A stretch of 20,628 nt of DNA from a virus. The DNA is taken from positions 1 to 20,628 of IMG/VR virus record IMGVR_UViG_3300010885_038267. The stretch is one strand, 5' to 3'. Below the pieces are notes generated by a model. That model did no database searches. It worked only from the letters and a program-made list of their open reading frames with translations, and was not told the DNA's origin. The translations under genes were made by a program, and so were the position numbers. Below are positions 3,555 to 14,385 of the stretch, piece after piece; the stretch's first letter is position 1; the number at the start of each line of letters is the position of its first letter.

Positions 3555-5573
3555 TTACTGCCAAGTTCCACCGTCGAATTCCATAGCCATTGCTGGAGTT
3601 TCCGATTCTGGACGCCTGTAGCCTTTCTTAAATCTATCCATTCCAAATACGTCTTCACCTCCAGATATTCTTACCTGAACGTCAACCATGTTGCCCATAA
3701 GGTCTGCCATTTGAATAAATTTACATCCTGGCTTTGGAGTTTTTAAAGCTCGCTCAATGCTGGAAAGGCCAAACTTCTGACGGCATACGTCCACCATCAA
3801 AACCCAAGCATCCGCTTTATCTGGAGAGCATTTGAGACGTTTTGAAAACTCCGCTTTGGCTTCTACTTTGATTTTTCCTTTACTGCCCTCGTCAACGTAA
3901 GTGGCTTCGGTAAGCTGAAATGTAATCTCAGGGATCATTCCGCGAATTTGACCACCACGAATCAATTCACGGGGGCAAACCCAAAGCTCATCGCGCTTAG
4001 TGTGAAATCTATCTTCTGCTTTACGACTATCAGTAAGTGAAACTGGCTTATCAGAAGGCTTGGATTTGAAATTCGTCCGCATCATCTGCCCTACATCGCG
4101 AGCAATAAGAGGCGCAATATTGCCGCCTCCTGTAATATCCATGTTTACATTCTCAATGCGCAAAGGCATGGCATCGGTAGGATTGGCAAACCTTTCCTCC
4201 TCCATTGTCTTTTTGAACTGCCTTGCAATCTGCTCTTCCTTAGAAGTAGAATCGCGCATGTTCTGATGATAGATGATAAGCTCCGACGTTTCGCACACTT
4301 TGAGATTGTAAGCTTTCCCATCTTTGACTCGTTGCGCCGTTCCCATCTTGCCAATTACAAGGGCGCACTCATCTCCACCTTCACCGTAAGCTGTATCAAA
4401 TCCAGCTACTAGCGTAGGCTTTTCAATCCATGCCGTTTCTTTTTTGTCTGCTTTGTAAGCAATAATTTCATTTTCAGAATAGATGTTGCTGCTAACTCCA
4501 ATAGGGCTAAACCAACCGCGCACATCTCGCCAATAACCAGGAGTGTCTTTTCCGCCGTTATCCGTTTCAATGTTCTTGAGCGATTGGATTGTGGGAAGTC
4601 CAGGCCATAGCGTCTTTCCAGCAAGCACATTAGGGCTTTGCAAAGCATCAAATCGAATGGCGTAAGCGCCTGCTACACATTCCCATTCCATCGGCCCCTC
4701 CTCCGTAACGCTGGACCAGCCATCAAGAGGCGTTACAAACCTTCCAGCGATGGAACTTCGTTTAGTGGGGTTAAACGGCCCCATAAACCTGCTTCGCTCG
4801 TTGGAGGCAAGGTTAGAATTTACCGTTCCCATTAGGGAATCATTAAGCGTGTCTAATTCGTCCGCTAAAACAACAAGAAACCCGCCATAAGCTTTTGTTC
4901 CTTGAATTTTTGCAGAAGAATCTTTATCGCTGCCTTGCTCACTTGCGACAAGTTGAACGCCAGCACCGTCAATACGAACCCCATTAAGTTCATAGCGAAT
5001 GCAGGAATCAGATTCAATAATGCGCCCAGGAAGATAAGCTGGATCGCCCATGTATTGCGCTAGTTGTTGCCAAGCCAATTTTACTTCCCCCCAAATTTTA
5101 CCTTTAGAAGCTCCAAGCGTTGTTGAAGTAACAAGAATCTTTACGCGCTTTCCATAGACAAAGAATAGCGTTGCGGCAAGCATTGCCATAAAACGGCTTT
5201 TGCCACTGCTAGCGCTCCCAAGCACGCCTAGCCTACGATGTTTTAAAAAAGCGGTCATCATCCGCTCTGCATTCGGATTCCAAGTAAAGTTGAACAGCGT
5301 ATCTTCCGTGCCGTAAACAATGCTGACTAGCTTCTTAAAGTGATACTCAAAGCCTTTGTGTCCTTTAGGGCAATTGCCAAAGCTTTCCCCAGGGCCATCA
5401 GGAGCGCGTTGGCACATCTGCAATTCCAATTCCCAATTCTCAATCTTGGCCGCTTTCTTCTGACGATTCCAGTAAGGACGCCAAATAGCACCGTAGGCTA
5501 AACGATGCAAAGCAGGATCATCAGGCGGGAAAGCCTGTATCTGCTCTTTGGGGATTACTTTCTTGATGGCCAT
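3555..5573 (-). CDS. terL: Terminase large subunit
   Basis: The 672-residue motor that pumps phage DNA into the prohead and cuts the concatemer. The ATPase domain has Walker A GSASSGKS at 119-126 and Walker B FLVVLADELDTL at 232-243 with the acidic pair D238-E239. The S-x-x-x-G-K-S form with A-S-S-G-K-S is typical of terminases. The RuvC-like nuclease domain starts at about 386 with VAGFDTAYGEGGDECAL (D392 as first metal ligand). It has a middle region including LTDSRKAEDRFHTKRDELW and a late acidic pair at about 600 (SPDKADAWVLMVDV). The length is at the upper end for the family. The first 100 residues include a Cys-containing segment (C54, C68) of unknown purpose. It starts at ATG 5573, 15 bases after the 60-aa gene. 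The small subunit is probably the gene at 7754-8347, separated from it by a plus-strand HNH insertion. Confidence 0.95.
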   Translation of the reverse strand: MAIKKVIPKEQIQAFPPDDPALHRLAYGAIWRPYWNRQKKAAKIENWELELQMCQRAPDGPGESFGNCPKGHKGFEYHFKKLVSIVYGTEDTLFNFTWNPNAERMMTAFLKHRRLGVLGSASSGKSRFMAMLAATLFFVYGKRVKILVTSTTLGASKGKIWGEVKLAWQQLAQYMGDPAYLPGRIIESDSCIRYELNGVRIDGAGVQLVASEQGSDKDSSAKIQGTKAYGGFLVVLADELDTLNDSLMGTVNSNLASNERSRFMGPFNPTKRSSIAGRFVTPLDGWSSVTEEGPMEWECVAGAYAIRFDALQSPNVLAGKTLWPGLPTIQSLKNIETDNGGKDTPGYWRDVRGWFSPIGVSSNIYSENEIIAYKADKKETAWIEKPTLVAGFDTAYGEGGDECALVIGKMGTAQRVKDGKAYNLKVCETSELIIYHQNMRDSTSKEEQIARQFKKTMEEERFANPTDAMPLRIENVNMDITGGGNIAPLIARDVGQMMRTNFKSKPSDKPVSLTDSRKAEDRFHTKRDELWVCPRELIRGGQIRGMIPEITFQLTEATYVDEGSKGKIKVEAKAEFSKRLKCSPDKADAWVLMVDVCRQKFGLSSIERALKTPKPGCKFIQMADLMGNMVDVQVRISGGEDVFGMDRFKKGYRRPESETPAMAMEFDGGTWQ

Positions 5574-5588
5574 TAAGCAAGCTTACAC

Positions 5589-5771
5589 TTATCTGCCGGA
5601 TTTGCCATCATCGTCATCCTCCAGATTACATTGTTTCAAGCTTTCCATGTAATCGGCTTTAACAGCTTCTAATGCGCCAATAACGGAGAAGGCAGACAGG
5701 TTAACGCATTCATGTTCCCAACGCTTAAGAACGGCGTGAAATTCATCGTAAATCATGTGGGCTTCGGTCAT
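5589..5771 (-). CDS. Hypothetical protein, 60 aa, first gene of the terminase block
   Basis: A 60-residue acidic protein, probably all-helical (MIYDEFHAVLKRWEHEC, VIGALEAVKADYMESLKQC), ending in an acidic D-D-D-D run. The open frame continues upstream to 5993, but the extra part is rich in F, H, Y and C and unlike phage protein. The ATG at 5771 has AGGA at the right distance (CAGGAATATATG), so I place the start there. No domain is recognised. Its position just before terL, its small size and its helical nature are compatible with an accessory packaging protein, but the better small-terminase candidate lies at 7754-8347. Transcription probably begins in the intergenic region 5772-5961, which holds a perfect palindrome and a TATACT hexamer on this strand. 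Confidence 0.65.
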   Translation of the reverse strand: MTEAHMIYDEFHAVLKRWEHECVNLSAFSVIGALEAVKADYMESLKQCNLEDDDDGKSGR

Positions 5772-5883
5772 ATATTCCTGATAGCACAAACCTTTTTCAA
5801 AGCAATATGAAAAAATTTGGAGGGGTGTTGATTTTGGAAAATGTGGGAGAAAAAACTTATGCTTTTCCAGAATACTAACACGT

Positions 5884-5910
5884 TCACTTATAACGAAAAA
5901 GTATAAGTGA
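5884..5910. promoter_or_regulatory. Operator-like perfect inverted repeat between divergent genes
   Basis: TCACTTATA (5884-5892), nine-base spacer, TATAAGTGA (5902-5910): a perfect 9+9 dyad with a centre-to-centre spacing suited to a dimeric repressor. It sits between the leftward 60-aa/terL block and the rightward gene at 5962. On the minus strand the right arm contains a good -10 hexamer, TATACT (5905-5900), so repressor binding would block leftward transcription directly. The regulator is not identified in the window. Confidence 0.55.
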
Positions 5911-5925
5911 TGTTTAAAGCGCCAC

Positions 5926-5955
5926 TTGACGATATTTAAAGGAATGGTGTAACAT
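5926..5955 (+). promoter_or_regulatory. Putative sigma70-type promoter for the 100-aa gene
   Basis: TTGACG (5926-5931), an 18-base spacer, then TAACAT (5950-5955). The predicted transcription start falls at about 5962, which is the GTG start codon of the next gene, so the message may have no leader. The -35 box is near consensus and the -10 box is moderate. Confidence 0.4.
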
Positions 5956-5961
5956 TTAACC

Positions 5962-6264
5962 GTGAATCCTTTTGCCCGCATAGATGACCGCACCGTTGCT
6001 ATTCAAGCGCGAACGTGTCCTTTGGCTAAAGCTGAGATTCAAAGACGCCTACAATGGGAAAAAAACTTCCTAGCCGTTGGCGAACCAATCAAATCATCCA
6101 CTTGTCCGCCTTGGATCAATAAACCAAAACTAGACACTTCTAAGGCATCGACTATCCACCTACACCGACGCGCTAAAAAACGCGCCCTATTCATTGCTTC
6201 CAAGTCCATCAATAAAGCGGAACGCAACGCCGCACAGTTTAAACTTGGATTACCCCTTACATAG
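5962..6264 (+). CDS. Hypothetical basic protein, 100 aa, GTG start
   Basis: A 100-residue basic protein of unknown function. It is rich in Lys and Arg in the second half (HLHRRAKKRALF, SKSINKAERNAAQFK) and has two cysteines (C19, C48). No known domain is recognised. It starts at GTG 5962, the first start codon in the open frame. There is no SD, and the start coincides with the expected transcription start of the promoter at 5926-5955, so leaderless translation is possible. It lies on the strand opposite to the terminase genes, together with the downstream HNH nuclease, from which it is separated by 261 bases containing a folded element. The two may form one inserted unit. Coding status is likely but not certain: composition is protein-like, and no competing frame is better. 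Confidence 0.55.
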   Translation: MNPFARIDDRTVAIQARTCPLAKAEIQRRLQWEKNFLAVGEPIKSSTCPPWINKPKLDTSKASTIHLHRRAKKRALFIASKSINKAERNAAQFKLGLPLT

Positions 6265-6327: not shown

Positions 6328-6525
6328 ATCAAGATAAAGCGCCCTATGAATTGAATTTCCAAAAGGAGAGAGAATAGCCTTGCTATGCCCATTTATAATT
6401 AGGTTTTTAGCCTGCGTAGCAATATTCAGTTTAGGTTGGTGTTGTTTATTTAAAATAAAACAATAGGGGTTGCGATATTGCGGATATGTAAGTTGTTTTT
6501 TATCAGCTTTGTGTTATATATAATA

Positions 6526-7227
6526 ATGACATCAAAAATTATTCCGTTATGTGAACATTGCTCATCTGTTTTAACTCCATCTAAAGGACGTAAAAAGAAA
6601 AGGTTTTGCAATCAAATTTGTGTCAATGCCCACAATAAGCCAAGGTTAAAAGCTAGAAATAAGTTACGATCCGAGCAAAACTTTCATACATGGGCCACTT
6701 TAGAAAAAGGGCTATGTTCAATATGCTCAAGCGATTTACCTATTCCAAGACCTATAAACCAAAAAGTCTGCTCAGATGCAAATTGCAAGAAAAGACACAA
6801 ATCAATTATTGATGCTCGCGGAATAGCTAGGAATCCAGCGCGCAACGCTCGCGCTCTTTTCGCAAACAGATTAAGAGAACTTGTTGTGAAAAAAGGGCTG
6901 CAAAAAATTAATGCAGCACTTCCATATATTGGATGTTCAGGACCGGAACTTATAGCATGGATTGAATCTCAATTTGAAAAAGGCATGTCTTGGCAATCAT
7001 GGGGTGTATTTGGATGGCACATAGACCATGTTATCCCAGCAAGTTGGTTTGATTTTACAAATAAAGATCATCTTTACGTTGCTCTTAACTGGCGCAACAT
7101 ACGACCTTTGTGGGCAGAGGTTAATGTCCTCAAATCCGACTCTCTTCCAAAATGCATAATACCTGAACTTTTAGAGATGGCTGAAAAAATAGGGGTTGTT
7201 CGTAATGGTGTAAGACGTATAGAATAA
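6526..7227 (+). CDS. Free-standing HNH endonuclease with two Cys4 zinc motifs
   Basis: A 233-residue nuclease. The N-terminal half has two Cys4 clusters: C9-x2-C12 with C28-x3-C32 (CEHC ... CNQIC), and C64-x2-C67 with C82-x4-C87. Both are probably zinc-stabilised DNA-contact or structural modules. The C-terminal half has the HNH core: W-H-I-D-H-V-I-P-A-S-W-F (H165, D167, H168), then L-N-W-R-N-I-R-P-L-W (N188) and A-E-V-N-x-x-K (N200). This is the form found in phage homing endonucleases. The open frame extends to a TTG at 6478, but ATG 6526 begins the recognisable protein. There is no SD: the sequence before the ATG is AT-only (TATAAT at 6519-6524 lies too close to act as promoter for this ATG). 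It lies on the strand opposite to the flanking terminase genes, which fits a mobile HNH inserted in the packaging region. Confidence 0.85.
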   Translation: MTSKIIPLCEHCSSVLTPSKGRKKKRFCNQICVNAHNKPRLKARNKLRSEQNFHTWATLEKGLCSICSSDLPIPRPINQKVCSDANCKKRHKSIIDARGIARNPARNARALFANRLRELVVKKGLQKINAALPYIGCSGPELIAWIESQFEKGMSWQSWGVFGWHIDHVIPASWFDFTNKDHLYVALNWRNIRPLWAEVNVLKSDSLPKCIIPELLEMAEKIGVVRNGVRRIE

Positions 7228-7753
7228 ATAAGTTTCAAAAAATATAGAGGGTTATAGGCACTCTATTGATAATCTTCGCGCCTGAGCGAAAAGAGCCCAG
7301 TGGGAGGGGCGTGGTGGGGTGTCCTCTCCGCCCTCTGTGGCCATCTAAGACCAGTTCACGATCTCCGCCTGTCTAGTGCTCCAGTCCTAGCTCTCCGATG
7401 CCTTTTAGCCACGTTTTTAGGCTTATTTCTAGCCTTGTGGAACACTTCACTTTCTATAATTTCTACCAAGTGGCCTATAACATTTCAGAAATTACCACCG
7501 CGCAAATAGTCGCAATGCACACAAAAGACGCTGCAATGCTTATGAGAGTAGGGATAAAGCGTTTGAGGTCGTATGAATTCCTATTTCATGCTAGTCCCAT
7601 TATATAAAGTTATCGGGTATAGCTAAAGAATAACCATCATTTTACCCTGCGCTGAGTGTCGCAAATGGGACATTACGGGACATTCTACAAAATCATCTCT
7701 CACAATCGCTATTCTAGCGGTCTTTACTGTATTCGTGTCTAATGACACTAGAA
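7228..7753. other. Intergenic region without a convincing gene (526 bases)
   Basis: Between the HNH gene and the small-terminase-like gene, which converge here. It contains a G-rich run (GGGAGGGG...GGTGGGG, 7302-7319), then a mixed GC-richer stretch to about 7400. A tandem GGGACATT pair lies at 7667-7684. A perfect GTGTC-TAAT-GACAC hairpin (7735-7748) lies just past the stop of the leftward gene and may mark its transcript end. Two short overlapping plus-strand open frames (7300-7509 and 7398-7607) look unlike phage protein. The composition shift suggests inserted or non-coding DNA. Confidence 0.5.
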
Positions 7754-8138
7754 TCACTCTAAAACGTCATCTTCAACCGTTTCCGCCTCAATAAAAGCCA
7801 CTTCGTTCTCCTGGCGAGTCCAAGGACCAACACTAACTGCAACCTGAACGTTCGTTGTGTTACCCTGTGATGCGTCATTTCCGCTGATCTTCGACAGCAT
7901 GCGCGCTAAAGTGGCTCCGTCTTGGATGGTTTCAGGAGTCGGCACGGTCCACGCATCAAGGGCTGCGGCTGTTTTGTGGGTCAGGCCTGCTAAGGTTTTC
8001 ATCCCCGCCTCTTTTGCGGCCTTCACCGTCATTTCTAGTGCCGTCATGGACAATTTTTGTTCATCATTTGTCCCTTGGTGGACAATTTTTGTCCCTTTTT
8101 GGGTGCTGGGGACATTCTCAGGGACATTTATTTGTCCC
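7667..8138. repeat. GGGACA/TGTCCC cluster, three phased palindromes; candidate packaging or regulatory site
   Basis: Seven exact GGGACA or TGTCCC words start at 7667, 7677, 8069, 8090, 8109, 8121 and 8133, plus two TGGACA variants at 8047 and 8079. They form palindromes GGACAATTTTTGTTC (8048-8062, one mismatch), GGACAATTTTTGTCC (8080-8094) and GGGACATTTATTTGTCCC (8121-8138, perfect), spaced 32 and 41 bases, close to three and four helical turns. A direct tandem GGGACATT-AC-GGGACATT lies at 7667-7684. The palindromes lie in codons about 70-100 of the small-terminase-like gene, in a low-constraint linker. Phage pac sites are known to lie in or near the small terminase gene, as in SPP1 and P22. 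Confidence 0.6.
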
Positions 8139-8347
8139 TCTTTAGGTTGTCGACTGATGTGGCGTGCTACACGTCCTGGAATGGGCCAATCGTAGCGTTG
8201 CGCCCGTTTCTTCAGGGATTCGTGATTGAGGGTGGGAAATAGGCTTATGATGGCGTCAAATGGAGTGCCAGCGATTGCGGCTCGCTCGATTGATTGCCAT
8301 TGCTCAGTGGTGAGTGGAGATGTGCGGCCCATAAATGTTGATAGCAT
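7754..8347 (-). CDS. Terminase small subunit-like DNA-binding protein
   Basis: A 197-residue protein. Residues 12-60 form a helix-turn-helix-like domain (TEQWQSIERAAIAGTPFDAI, then SLKKRAQRYDWPIP). The order I-A-x-x-F-P before a recognition helix ending K-K-R-A-x-x-x-x-W-P is characteristic of phage small terminases and related HTH proteins that start with a resolvase-like fold. The middle (about 70-100) is a low-complexity linker that overlaps the GGGACA palindromes. Residues 100-160 are helical (MTALEMTVKAAKEAGMKTLAGL, oligomerisation type) and the C-terminus is acidic. The start is ATG 8347, or possibly ATG 8332 (MGRTSPL). Neither has an SD. It would bind the packaging site and load the large subunit. 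The function is inferred from fold-like pattern and position; a transcriptional regulator is the alternative. Confidence 0.6.
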   Translation of the reverse strand: MLSTFMGRTSPLTTEQWQSIERAAIAGTPFDAIISLFPTLNHESLKKRAQRYDWPIPGRVARHISRQPKEGQINVPENVPSTQKGTKIVHQGTNDEQKLSMTALEMTVKAAKEAGMKTLAGLTHKTAAALDAWTVPTPETIQDGATLARMLSKISGNDASQGNTTNVQVAVSVGPWTRQENEVAFIEAETVEDDVLE

Positions 8348-8472
8348 TATCTGAAACGGGCTTTAATGCAAGTTAGTTGCGCTTAGGGCTGCGATATTTG
8401 CCGAAATCGCGGGCGGATGTGCGAGATTTTGGACGGTTGAAAGGTTCAAATGCAGATTGTTTCACTTTTAGC

Positions 8473-8500
8473 TTGATAATCTAAGCGGATAGCTTATTGT
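8473..8500 (+). promoter_or_regulatory. Putative promoter for the rightward ArdC cassette
   Basis: TTGATA (8473-8478), 16-base spacer, TATTGT (8495-8500), 48 bases before the ATG at 8548. It lies in the divergent gap 8348-8547. The same gap has an imperfect GCGAT...ATCGC dyad near 8389-8408. The match to sigma70 consensus is moderate. Confidence 0.35.
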
Positions 8501-8963: not shown

Positions 8964-9839
8964 ATGAAAAACGAAGACCAAACAAGTGAGCAAGTAGATG
9001 TTTATCAAATCGTAACAAATCGCATTATTGAACTTTTAGAAGCAGGCGTCGTGCCTTGGCATAAGCCGTGGGCTGCTGGTGCAGAGGAGCCGATGAACCT
9101 AGTCAGTAAAAAGCCTTATCGCGGCGTCAACGTGTGGCTTTTAGCCGCATCCGGTTATAGCTCGCCTTATTGGGTGAGCTATAAGCAAGCTCAGGAACTC
9201 GGCGGCCAGGTTCGTAAAGGAGAATCCTCTACGCTGGTAGTATTCTGGAAAATGCTGAAAGGCAAAGACAAAGCAACGGGTGAAGAAAAGACAATTCCAA
9301 TGCTTCGCTATTATCGCGTTTTCAACGTTGAGCAATGCGACGGCCTTGAATATCCTAAGCAAGAGCCTCGCAATCCTGGATTCAATCCGCTGGCTGAATG
9401 CGTTAAGATTGTGGACGGCTACAAGCTTGGTCCCATCATTCAGCACAAATCGCAACGCGCCTGCTATTCGCGTCAAACTGACATGGTAAACATGCCATTG
9501 CCAGAATCGTTTGATTCATCGGCTGAATACTACTCGACACTTTTCCATGAATTGACGCATTCAACGGGTCACGAATCGCGCATCGGACGCTTGCAAAATT
9601 CTGTGTCTGGGTTTGGGTCAACCAGCTACGCAAAGGAAGAATTGATTGCAGAAATGGGCGCGGCGTTTCTTTCAGCTGTTGCTGGCATTGGTGTTCGAGT
9701 GATGGACAATTCAGCGGTTTACATCGCTAGCTGGCTGGCACATTTCAAGAATGACAAGAAATTGGTTGTAGGTGCTGCCGCTGCCGCTCAAAAATCAAGC
9801 GAGCTTATTCTAGGTCGTGAATCCCCTACATTTGCTTAA
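8964..9839 (+). CDS. ardC: ArdC-like anti-restriction protein (ssDNA-binding domain plus zincin protease domain)
   Basis: A 291-residue protein of the ArdC family. Family members shield incoming DNA from host restriction, and the C-terminal domain has a metallopeptidase fold. The N-terminal ssDNA-binding domain (about 10-125) has the signature V-P-W-H-K-P-W at 30-36, N-L-V-S-K-K-P-Y-R-G-V-N at 45-56 and the strand segment RKGESSTLVVFWK at 84-96. The zincin domain carries H-E-L-T-H (195-199), an A-H-x-x-G-H-like extension (HSTGHESR), and the third ligand in E-E-L-I-A-E (225-230). The family length is normal. It starts at ATG 8964 with an A-rich leader and no good SD. The stop TAA (9837-9839) is followed four bases later by a hammerhead ribozyme. 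Position in an early rightward cassette fits a protein needed at DNA entry. Confidence 0.92.
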   Translation: MKNEDQTSEQVDVYQIVTNRIIELLEAGVVPWHKPWAAGAEEPMNLVSKKPYRGVNVWLLAASGYSSPYWVSYKQAQELGGQVRKGESSTLVVFWKMLKGKDKATGEEKTIPMLRYYRVFNVEQCDGLEYPKQEPRNPGFNPLAECVKIVDGYKLGPIIQHKSQRACYSRQTDMVNMPLPESFDSSAEYYSTLFHELTHSTGHESRIGRLQNSVSGFGSTSYAKEELIAEMGAAFLSAVAGIGVRVMDNSAVYIASWLAHFKNDKKLVVGAAAAAQKSSELILGRESPTFA

Positions 9840-11677: not shown

Positions 11678-13510
11678 TTAATCGCTAGAATGGCGTTTGT
11701 AGGGCGGCTTACTGTTTTTTACTTGCTTCGGGTCTAATCGCTTTGGCGGGTCGCAGTGAGTAAACGAATACCGATAAGGATTAAATTTCAGGTAAAACGT
11801 TGATAGCCAGCCAGTTTCACGTTGCTTTTCAAGCATGATTTCCGTGTCGTGCATTGCGTCCAACTCATCTTTTGCAAGCGTTCCATCCCTTCGCGCTTGG
11901 TCTTTTTCGCTATTTCTGACAATGATAGCGATATTGTCGCAGTTGTTAGCGATAAGCGATGATCCTTTGATTGAATCAAGGCTAGGCCCTGATCCTTGCG
12001 CAGTTTTTCTTGAATGAGCTACCATGTGAATATGAATTCCGGTGCTTTTAGCTAGCTCCTGCAATCGGTTAAGAAACTTTCCTTGTGCTGGATAATCTTC
12101 CTCAAGATCTTCAATTCTCATTAAGCTATCAATAACATAGTGCATGATTCCATATCGTTGAAAAGCAAAGCGAATCATCTCTAAAAGCTTGTCTTGATTG
12201 ATAAATCCAATTACATCAGCAAAGAAAATTAAATGACCGTAACTATCCAAGAAAGCGGCTCCCTGACTTGGTGAAAGCTCACTTCCCATTTTTGACATAG
12301 GCGCGGCCATCTTACGAAGAATCGTTTCTGCCTTCATCTCCATTGAGGCTATGAAAATAGGATTATCACTAATGATAAGCGCAAGCATGAGGTAATTTAA
12401 AAACGTAGATTTTCCCGCGCTAGTTTTACCAGTCCAAACCGTCACTTCTCCTGGCCTAAAATAGAATCCCTCATAAGGCCATGCTTTCTTGAAAAATGGC
12501 ATTGTGAACGGCTCTGGCTTGCTTCGTAACTCTTCGGCTAATCGTGGCCCTAAATCGCTAGCAAGGACTAATCCTTCAAGCTTTGGCGGTTTGGCATCCC
12601 TAATCCATGTTTCCGCATCTTGAGCCGTAAAACCATCTCGCAAGCAATCATTAGCGTCTTTCCTTGGTAGCTTCACAACAAGGCAACGATGAATTCCTAG
12701 CCTGTCGATAACTTTAGAAGCAATAGCCGCTCCTGTTTTATCCATGTCAAAACTGACGTAAATGTGATCAAATGCCGCAAGATTTGCCCACTCGTAATCA
12801 ACCCACGATAACCCGCTGCCGTTAGGAACGGATAATGCCGGAATTCCCCATTGATTCCATGTCATGGCGTCGATTTGACCTTCACAAAGCAAAACGGTTT
12901 TGGCTTTAAAGGCTGAATCAGGCAAAGCTTGCCAGCCGAATAAGGACGGGGCGCAACCTGTATCTTGCCATACTTTCTTCTTTTCGTCGCCAGTTGGTAA
13001 ATTGCGGAATGATCGGTTGATTAGTTCGCCGCTAGGTGAGTAAGACGGGAAAACAATAGCTCTCGCGTCTGGCTTTCCTGCAACCTTAAATCTGGTTAGA
13101 ACTTCGGCTGAAATTTTGCGCTTTGAGGTCAACCATTGCATCGCTGACCCACCTTCGGCCAAAGGGTGTATTCCGTTGGTAGAAGGCTTGCTGTAAACTT
13201 TAGCCTTTTCTTGTATTGGATCAACGATTCCAAGCCACTCTTTCGCCTGCTTAATTGCTTCCGGCTTGGTGATATTCCGTGATAGCTGCCAAAGGTCTAA
13301 AAGATCGCCATGTTGATCTTCATCAGCCCAATCCCTCCAACTTCCCGCGTGTTGCCCGCTTAATTGCACTTTAAGCGAGATTCCAGCGCTTCCAGAGGCA
13401 TCTCCGGCTAGCCACTCGCCTTTGACTGCCTTGCCGCCAGAAAGCAGCATTGCGCAAACTGCGTCGGCTCTGTCCGCGAGCCTCTTTGAAATGTCAGATA
13501 CAGAGTGCAT
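11678..13510 (-). CDS. Bifunctional TOPRIM primase / DnaB-type helicase
   Basis: A 610-residue replicative enzyme like phage T7 gp4: it makes RNA primers and unwinds DNA as a ring. The N-terminal 100 residues match the primase zinc-domain position (GDLLDLWQLSRN, then EAIKQAKEWLG) but lack the four zinc cysteines. The TOPRIM fold has V-L-L-C-E-G-Q-I-D-A at 206-215 and the D-x-D motif FDMDKTG at 254-260. The RecA-type helicase has Walker A GKTSAGKST at 361-369, Walker B H-Y-V-I-D-S-L at 457-463, and M-V-A-H-S-R-K at 496-502. The ring-type family length is normal. ATG 13510 overlaps the stop of the replication protein (TAATG). Its neighbours upstream (DnaD-like protein, helicase, methyltransferase) show that this is the replication operon. 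Confidence 0.93.
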   Translation of the reverse strand: MHSVSDISKRLADRADAVCAMLLSGGKAVKGEWLAGDASGSAGISLKVQLSGQHAGSWRDWADEDQHGDLLDLWQLSRNITKPEAIKQAKEWLGIVDPIQEKAKVYSKPSTNGIHPLAEGGSAMQWLTSKRKISAEVLTRFKVAGKPDARAIVFPSYSPSGELINRSFRNLPTGDEKKKVWQDTGCAPSLFGWQALPDSAFKAKTVLLCEGQIDAMTWNQWGIPALSVPNGSGLSWVDYEWANLAAFDHIYVSFDMDKTGAAIASKVIDRLGIHRCLVVKLPRKDANDCLRDGFTAQDAETWIRDAKPPKLEGLVLASDLGPRLAEELRSKPEPFTMPFFKKAWPYEGFYFRPGEVTVWTGKTSAGKSTFLNYLMLALIISDNPIFIASMEMKAETILRKMAAPMSKMGSELSPSQGAAFLDSYGHLIFFADVIGFINQDKLLEMIRFAFQRYGIMHYVIDSLMRIEDLEEDYPAQGKFLNRLQELAKSTGIHIHMVAHSRKTAQGSGPSLDSIKGSSLIANNCDNIAIIVRNSEKDQARRDGTLAKDELDAMHDTEIMLEKQRETGWLSTFYLKFNPYRYSFTHCDPPKRLDPKQVKNSKPPYKRHSSD

Positions 13511-14385
13511 TATTTAATTGTTCTAGGGTCGAAAACTGCGTCAAAATCATGTGGCGTTCCTTCCCACTCCTCTTTTGCTTTCTTGCGACGTATGGCGAGG
13601 TCTAGGTTAAATCCTCCTTCTGAGTCAAAAAGATCATCAAAATCCTCGTTTTTTGCTTCTGCGGCTGCTTTGGCCTCGGCATACCATTGAGCTTGTCGTT
13701 CGTATTCTGGCGCGTATTTGGCCATAAACTCGGCAGCAGTCGGTGAAGCTGGCTGTGTAAACCCGTTAAATTTCTGCTTTTGGCTAGGCAACCAATTCTG
13801 AGATTTCCATTTTCGCATTCCAGCTTGCCAGTCTTTTGACGGGGTATTGCCATTCTTCCAGCCATTTGCCTCCCAATGGTCAAACATGAATTCGCCGTCT
13901 ATGGCTTGGAGTCCAATTTCAAGAGCGTATGAAACAAGTTCGTCTAAAGTGCCTCTAGCTTTATTTACTTTCGGCTCGCTCTTTTCCGTTTCCGTTTCCT
14001 TGTCTTTATCCTCTTCCTTATCCTTATCCTTATCTTGGAGGGTATTGATACCCTTTGGATACCCTTCTAAACCATGTTTTAACAAAGACTGAAAGACAGG
14101 ATTGTGTGCTTTGCATTCACGGCTAAGATTACCATATTGATAGGGGATGAACTTCGTCACAATCCATTTCTCACAAGAAAGTTTTACAACTCTATCACCT
14201 AAGTCTGAAAGGGTATCCATAGGTATTGGCATACCTATCTGAAAGCTTGCTAGCTCAAGATCAATATCTATGATTCCGGCATTATCGCATGAATCTAAAA
14301 GCCACATCCAAAGCAGTTTAGCTCTAGGTTTCAACTTTCTAAACCATGGGTCTGCCCACTTAGAGGTTTCGGTAAAGCGTTTAAT
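13510..14385 (-). CDS. DnaD-like phage replication/replisome-organiser protein, probable ATT start
   Basis: A 291-residue protein. The N-terminal 110 residues (KRFTETSKWADPWFRKLKPR, then LLWMWLLDSCDNAGIIDIDL) have the winged-helix pattern of phage replisome organisers that load helicase, and match the common start M-x-R-F-T-x-T-x-K-W-x-D-P-W-F-R-K-L. A charged low-complexity linker follows (about 117-135, D-K repeats), then a second helical domain (EFMFDHWEANGWKNG, W-x-A-G-M-R-K-W). The usual ATG is absent. TTG 14334 would remove the conserved first 17 residues. GGAGG lies five bases before an ATT codon at 14385-14383 that overlaps the upstream stop (ATTAA), so I infer ATT initiation. The gene is followed by the primase-helicase with a one-base overlap. 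Confidence 0.82.
   Translation of the reverse strand: MKRFTETSKWADPWFRKLKPRAKLLWMWLLDSCDNAGIIDIDLELASFQIGMPIPMDTLSDLGDRVVKLSCEKWIVTKFIPYQYGNLSRECKAHNPVFQSLLKHGLEGYPKGINTLQDKDKDKEEDKDKETETEKSEPKVNKARGTLDELVSYALEIGLQAIDGEFMFDHWEANGWKNGNTPSKDWQAGMRKWKSQNWLPSQKQKFNGFTQPASPTAAEFMAKYAPEYERQAQWYAEAKAAAEAKNEDFDDLFDSEGGFNLDLAIRRKKAKEEWEGTPHDFDAVFDPRTIK

Follow-up and report, generated by a model that had tools for sequence, protein, structure and literature searches.

GGGACA palindromes within a small-terminase-like phage gene form a candidate self-recognition site

Introduction

The packaging site pac of phage P22 is one 22-bp asymmetric sequence situated inside the coding sequence of the terminase small subunit (TerS) (PMC9611059), and pac of SPP1/SF6 comprises several repeats in or beside the TerS gene that are candidate TerS sites, those of SPP1 being direct repeats that span promoters and the start of the gene (PMC4737164). 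How does TerS find the place where packaging begins? A review describes start-site recognition as unclear and controversial, partly because the TerS proteins that have been studied bind weakly and without sequence preference (PMC9611059), and in vitro TerS often binds weakly and non-specifically (PMC9611059, PMC4737164). In a model of PaP3 TerS, two juxtaposed HTHs clasp a cos site of ~20 bp. A different arrangement is found in oriλ, where repeated sites occupy the middle of the gene for their own DNA-binding protein, the initiator, next to a flanking AT-rich tract; in Stx phages, the O protein is 13 residues longer where iterons have been added (PMC7466680).

The window examined here, meaning the whole stretch of 20,628 b, is a source record classed as a linear virus record and possibly a fragment, and it carries a dense array of GGGACA words in a TerS-family gene. 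The array resembles P22 pac in lying within TerS coding sequence, but consists of three palindromes, single half-sites and a distal tandem pair instead of one asymmetric sequence; it resembles pac of SPP1/SF6 in having several repeats that are candidate TerS sites, but these are mainly inverted and lie mid-gene. The mid-gene position recalls oriλ, whereas the gene is a relative of TerS and has no flanking AT-rich tract. No palindrome array inside a TerS gene was described in the openly licensed papers that we searched.

Results

Seven exact GGGACA/TGTCCC words (GGGACA at 7667, 7677, 8109 and 8121; TGTCCC at 8069, 8090 and 8133) fall within the 472 b from 7667 to 8138, just as the earlier note on this DNA had counted, and the rest of the record holds two, at 2701 and 20421, so the palindromes are not scattered evenly, an outcome that the note had named as counting against its proposal. 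The total of nine is ordinary (shuffle mean 5.51; 9 of 100 shuffles reach nine); what is unusual is the clustering, with seven of nine words in 472 b. The Poisson expectation for such a stretch is 0.123, against the previous estimate of about 0.2, and the tail of 7.7e-11 makes this the most extreme 472-b cluster among all hexamers of the record, in a ranking of words with at least three different letters that leaves out low-complexity words. Across 60 dinucleotide shuffles, no hexamer had a tail better than 1.5e-7; none of the 60 equalled the GGGACA cluster, and we therefore reject chance as its cause.

Table 1. Coordinates of the array and of the genes around it.
Feature	Position	Strand	Remarks
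Terminase large subunit (TerL)	3555..5573	-	phrog_2, E 4.4e-15; 29-34% identity to 11 relatives
Small ORF between TerS gene and terL	5589..5993	-	no family found
Endonuclease VII-like gene between TerS gene and terL	6478..7227	+	phrog_1035, E 2.9e-8
Tandem GGGACATT pair, 10-base period	7667-7674 and 7677-7684	+	between TerS stop and convergent endonuclease-like gene
TerS-family gene, 197 aa	7754..8347	-	homologues near terL; hhalign; HTH in AF2 model
Imperfect palindrome GGACAATTTTTGTTC	8048..8062		one arm mismatch
TTGTCC-N6-GGACAA, overlapping outward-facing pair	8068..8085		includes TGTCCC word at 8069
Palindrome GGACAATTTTTGTCC	8080..8094		perfect arms; with 8095, full GGGACA word on minus strand
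Single half-site GGGACA	8109..8114	+	exact word
Palindrome GGGACATTTATTTGTCCC (coding strand GGGACAAATAAATGTCCC)	8121..8138		perfect arms
Primase/helicase directly downstream of candidate initiator	11678..13510	-	phrog_239, E 6.2e-92
Candidate replication initiator with GGGTATC/GATACCC repeats	13510..14334	-	repeats at 14040-14064 and 14211-14216

The geometry of the array (Table 1) needed some correction. Three palindromes had been reported, starting at 8048, 8080 and 8121; the second and third have perfect arms, whereas the first is imperfect. Their spacing had been given as 32 and 41 b, of which the first figure stands and the second becomes 42.5 b from centre to centre; the phasing, at 3.05 and 4.05 turns of 10.5 bp, is thus tidier than was stated, and this near-whole-turn spacing is suggestive, with only two intervals, picked after the fact. 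The palindromes (8048-8138) lie inside the gene, the tandem pair outside it, 70-87 b beyond the stop codon. An alternative reading of the array is as outward-facing TTGTCC-N6-GGACAA; sequence alone therefore does not fix the recognition unit.

The array reflects constraint on the DNA and not on the protein alone. The 15-mer GRACAAAAATTGTCC is present twice in different reading frames, encoding TKIVH in one and EQKLS in the other, and the repeats at large are spread over frames (GGGACA in 2, 0 and 0; TGTCC in 2 and 1). When the TerS gene was rewritten in synonymous codons, following their usage in eight of the record's ORFs, five or more in-gene words arose in 1 of 20,000 trials (mean 0.51) and all three palindromes in none of the 20,000, and codon bias was rejected as the source of the array. 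Because the repeats stand in different frames and recoding rarely restores them, the DNA itself is constrained, and the array is accordingly a cis site that runs through a tolerant part of the protein, the linker. Alignment with relatives places extra residues, including the array-encoding stretch, between the HTH and the C-terminal part, where the relatives have a short proline/alanine linker instead. Frames, recoding and alignment together bear out the earlier suggestion that the words sit in a linker whose codons are free to vary.

What is the gene in which this array lies? The protein, whose start is possibly codon 6 (base 8332), is laid out as an N-terminal HTH, a linker and a helical C-terminal part, and direct family scans of it found no family. 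A pattern scan for TerL found at least 119 loci with matching ORFs (E 1.5e-86 to 4.3e-54 among the first 90 matches listed), and the best 80 relatives from an alignment search with TerL were kept. In seven TerL-family loci among these 80, all from metagenomic phages, the gene just upstream of terL is homologous to ours by phmmer (L481, 3.7e-5; L424-L427, 2.1e-4; L429, 1e-3; L442, 6.6e-3) and ends 124-151 b ahead of the terL ORF, with which it shares the strand; a more distant homologue, in L491, was found via profile several kb from terL. Members of this group share two features, an HTH whose end reads KRAxRExWPxP and a helical segment in the C-terminal part, and hhalign matches our protein to the group at E 4.1e-6. 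Four of five group members match phrog_51 (terminase small subunit), the best at 6.6e-5, which indicates homology of our gene to recognised TerS genes. Some TerL-family loci have a second, divergent HTH gene type next to terL, certain members of which match small-terminase PHROGs; its profile matches the first group at E 7.9e-6 when our protein is left out and more weakly, at E 0.0048, when it is included.

Structure prediction adds an N-terminal DNA-binding domain. A second AF2 model, trusted for residues 1-50 only (block mean pLDDT 70-89) and poor for the rest, including the C-terminal part, predicts helices at 9-20, 25-31 and 37-47, and this HTH fits a GcrA-like DBD (Z 6.3, rmsd 2.1, 49 residues aligned; Foldseek E-values not significant), so that the protein, as modelled, has the N-terminal HTH expected of a TerS. 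AF2 run on the single sequence yielded a poor model (pLDDT 39.7), and a fold search with that model was uninformative; a BFVD structure search gave no significant match. An assignment to phrog_5789 (E 0.11) was dropped, with no match in 37 records including this one. The label of small-terminase-like gene, proposed from the letters of this DNA, is therefore supported by homology and by the position of the relatives next to terL.

Close relatives that might show whether the palindromes persist are lacking in the databases searched. None of the TerS protein was found in viral contigs, phages, plasmids or genome contigs; an alignment search of the viral contigs with TerS returned the L424 group again and one further contig, and tblastn with the TerS relatives gave nothing in phages or plasmids. 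A joint pattern of RAxRxxWPxP and GGGACA picked out 62 stretches, judged by eye to be either unrelated ORFs or frames arising by chance. Among 28 genes of this TerL family that are TerS-like or candidates for TerS, a set that takes in weak profile matches (E up to 3), none has a comparable array; their best hexamer tail is 2.4e-6, against 7.7e-11 here. The earlier note had proposed asking whether relatives keep the palindromes while the linker amino acids change, and among the distant relatives found the outcome is negative, these having neither the linker stretch nor an array.

The TerS gene lies upstream of terL on the same strand, ~2.2 kb away with two genes between. Elsewhere in the record, GGGTAT/ATACCC is the second most clustered hexamer and falls inside the candidate initiator gene, where the GGGTATC repeats occupy different reading frames; the C-terminal motif of this protein matches two array-bearing ORFs from the scans of other phages described below (L222, 1.6e-8; L204, 4.3e-5). 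On these sequence features, the GGGTATC/GATACCC repeats are likely the replication origin of the phage. Cumulative GC skew tracks the coding strand and gives no origin position.

Discussion

We propose that the array is a candidate set of self-recognition sites, pac- or cosB-like, for the TerS encoded by the same gene, a reading to which we give a probability of roughly 0.47. The N-terminal HTH of TerS would contact DNA, two juxtaposed HTHs sharing one palindrome of 15-18 bp; the three palindromes on one helix face, together with the distal tandem pair, would nucleate the terminase complex, which would in turn mark the spot (pac or cosB) for TerL to begin packaging. By analogy, an HTH pairing of the PaP3 type would suit palindromes of this length. 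That TerS is the binder, and packaging the role, we infer. The candidate initiator's own repeat is a different word, GGGTATC, so the TerS product is the obvious reader of GGGACA, and pac of P22 and of SPP1 provides a precedent for TerS. The simplest reading would then be two genes for HTH proteins, each with an internal set of sites and each protein reading the sites of its own gene. We can also imagine, though we consider it doubtful, that the locus is the packaging counterpart of oriλ in the O gene, a TerS gene having gained a linker that encodes phased palindromes for its own TerS, with paired HTHs of the oligomer nucleating on three symmetric sites.

Several observations count against a packaging site: the 28 genes of the same family have no comparable array; arrays elsewhere lie mostly in initiator genes, with no convincing TerS among their ORFs; the TerS sites described for P22 and SPP1 are asymmetric or direct repeats, to which TerS often binds weakly; and an opposite-strand gene as well as a small ORF come between the TerS gene and terL. 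If the reading is right, the TerS site would be sequence-specific and symmetric, in contrast to the sites described for P22 and SPP1, which are asymmetric or direct repeats and bound weakly, and a TerS gene with near-identical palindromes under DNA-level constraint would provide a well-defined substrate for experiments. Should the array prove to be an origin instead, an origin would be lodged in a packaging gene; either outcome would aid the interpretation of cis sites in uncultured phage genomes.

Where such arrays occur in other phages bears directly on the first alternative, that these are iterons of a replication origin, perhaps a second one, bound by an initiator and happening to sit in a TerS-family gene. 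GGGACA-N(3-8)-TGTCCC-N(0-30)-GGGACA was found at at least 119 loci of viral contigs and the analogous GTGACA pattern at at least 120. After removal of loci without an ORF of 100 aa over the array (12 and 32, respectively) and of two duplicates from each set, 105 and 86 ORFs remained; the family counts that follow are lower limits, since each array is represented by the longest ORF that covers it and some of these are antisense. The GGGACA set is rich in replication-initiation PHROGs, with overlapping counts of at least 19 (phrog_270), 15 (phrog_678) and 13 (phrog_428) of 105, along with matches to DnaD-like or primosomal families and, in Pfam, HTH_36 in at least 13 and DUF1376 in at least 7 of the 105. 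In the GTGACA set, HTH_36 is present in at least 28 and Phage_rep_O in at least 27 of 86. The GTGACA scan also tested the idea of TerS-like proteins with VT-rich linkers; it found initiators instead, and the idea is unsupported.

The base rate of GGGACA/GTGACA arrays, judged by these family matches, points to replication, and suggests that GnGACA is a widespread candidate half-site for phage replication origins with initiators of the HTH_36, DUF1376 and Phage_rep_O types; in the openly licensed literature, we found no paper linking GGGACA to phage replication. The initiator-gene arrays (L002-L240) share with ours the same or a one-base-different half-site, the inverted arrangement and the placement in a coding linker, whereas the 191 array-bearing ORFs listed gave no convincing match to TerS profiles (best 0.074) and the gene here is TerS-like. 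The iteron-driven lengthening of O in Stx phages (PMC7466680) is comparable in kind to the linker stretch seen here. Against an origin stand the identity of the host gene, which is not initiator-like, the separate initiator-like gene beside the primase/helicase with a repeat set of its own, and the base composition, AT being 46-55% in 8000-8399 against 57% overall. The two marks of an origin of the O/initiator type, repeats in an initiator gene and an adjacent AT-rich tract, are thus both absent, and we consider an origin at this position unlikely.

Less probable again is an operator array through which TerS or some other HTH protein, acting as regulator, would control transcription of the packaging genes from within the gene. 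Palindromes 15-18 bp long would fit a dimeric HTH regulator, and the distal pair could be joined to the three near-phased palindromes in a loop that represses transcription, but the sites lie 210-300 b inside the gene and 70-87 b past its end, with none in the upstream region 8348-8500.

That the palindromes are arm-type sites for an integrase, belonging to an attachment site, seems to us improbable to a still greater degree. TTGTC-N8-GACAA, a form also taken by 8068-8085 here, recurs 199-245 b upstream of the terL ORF in 10 of 198 TerL-family loci with arms kept and spacer changed, and distant TerL relatives have, between integrase and terL, a stretch that by eye is tRNA-like, with TTGTCA-N6-TGACAA and a tandem TGACA pair on its flanks. 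However, no integrase was seen among the proteins scanned, which do not include every ORF of what may be a fragment, no tRNA gene was found, and the palindromes here lie in TerS coding sequence; moreover, in a third group TTGTC-N8-GACAA is found where a helicase gene starts, and unrelated places thus share the form. As a site shared by the family it was rejected, its locations differing (int/attP region, helicase gene start), and for this reason it is retained solely as a lead for this alternative. That the linker received, in frame, a small palindromic insertion now without function, as relatives lacking the linker stretch might suggest, has the slimmest chance of all, as the record has no second copy and the sites reach beyond the gene end.

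Some observations made along the way concern other loci. Upstream of terL in L308, L311, L365, L399 and six further loci, TTGTCA-N6-TGACAA with a varying spacer lies beside the start of an integrase gene and a stretch resembling a tRNA 3' end, and the whole is a candidate attP with arm sites. In other loci (L379 at 793, L384 at 1826, L328 at 453 and L335 at 4707, gene-oriented, among others), a palindrome of the type TTGTCTAT-N2-4-AGACAA by the start of a helicase gene keeps its arms while the spacer varies, and by this pattern is a probable operator. GGGACA/TGTCCC words also reach high density per ~300 b in L106 (26 words, 768-1065), L077 (22, 9408-9713) and L029 (18, 673-969), those of L077 and L029 lying inside an ORF that resembles a membrane protein. 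In the window itself, 8964-9839 holds an ArdC-like anti-restriction gene with ArdcN and MPTase-PolyVal domains; it is encoded on the plus strand, opposite to the prevailing direction of the genes.
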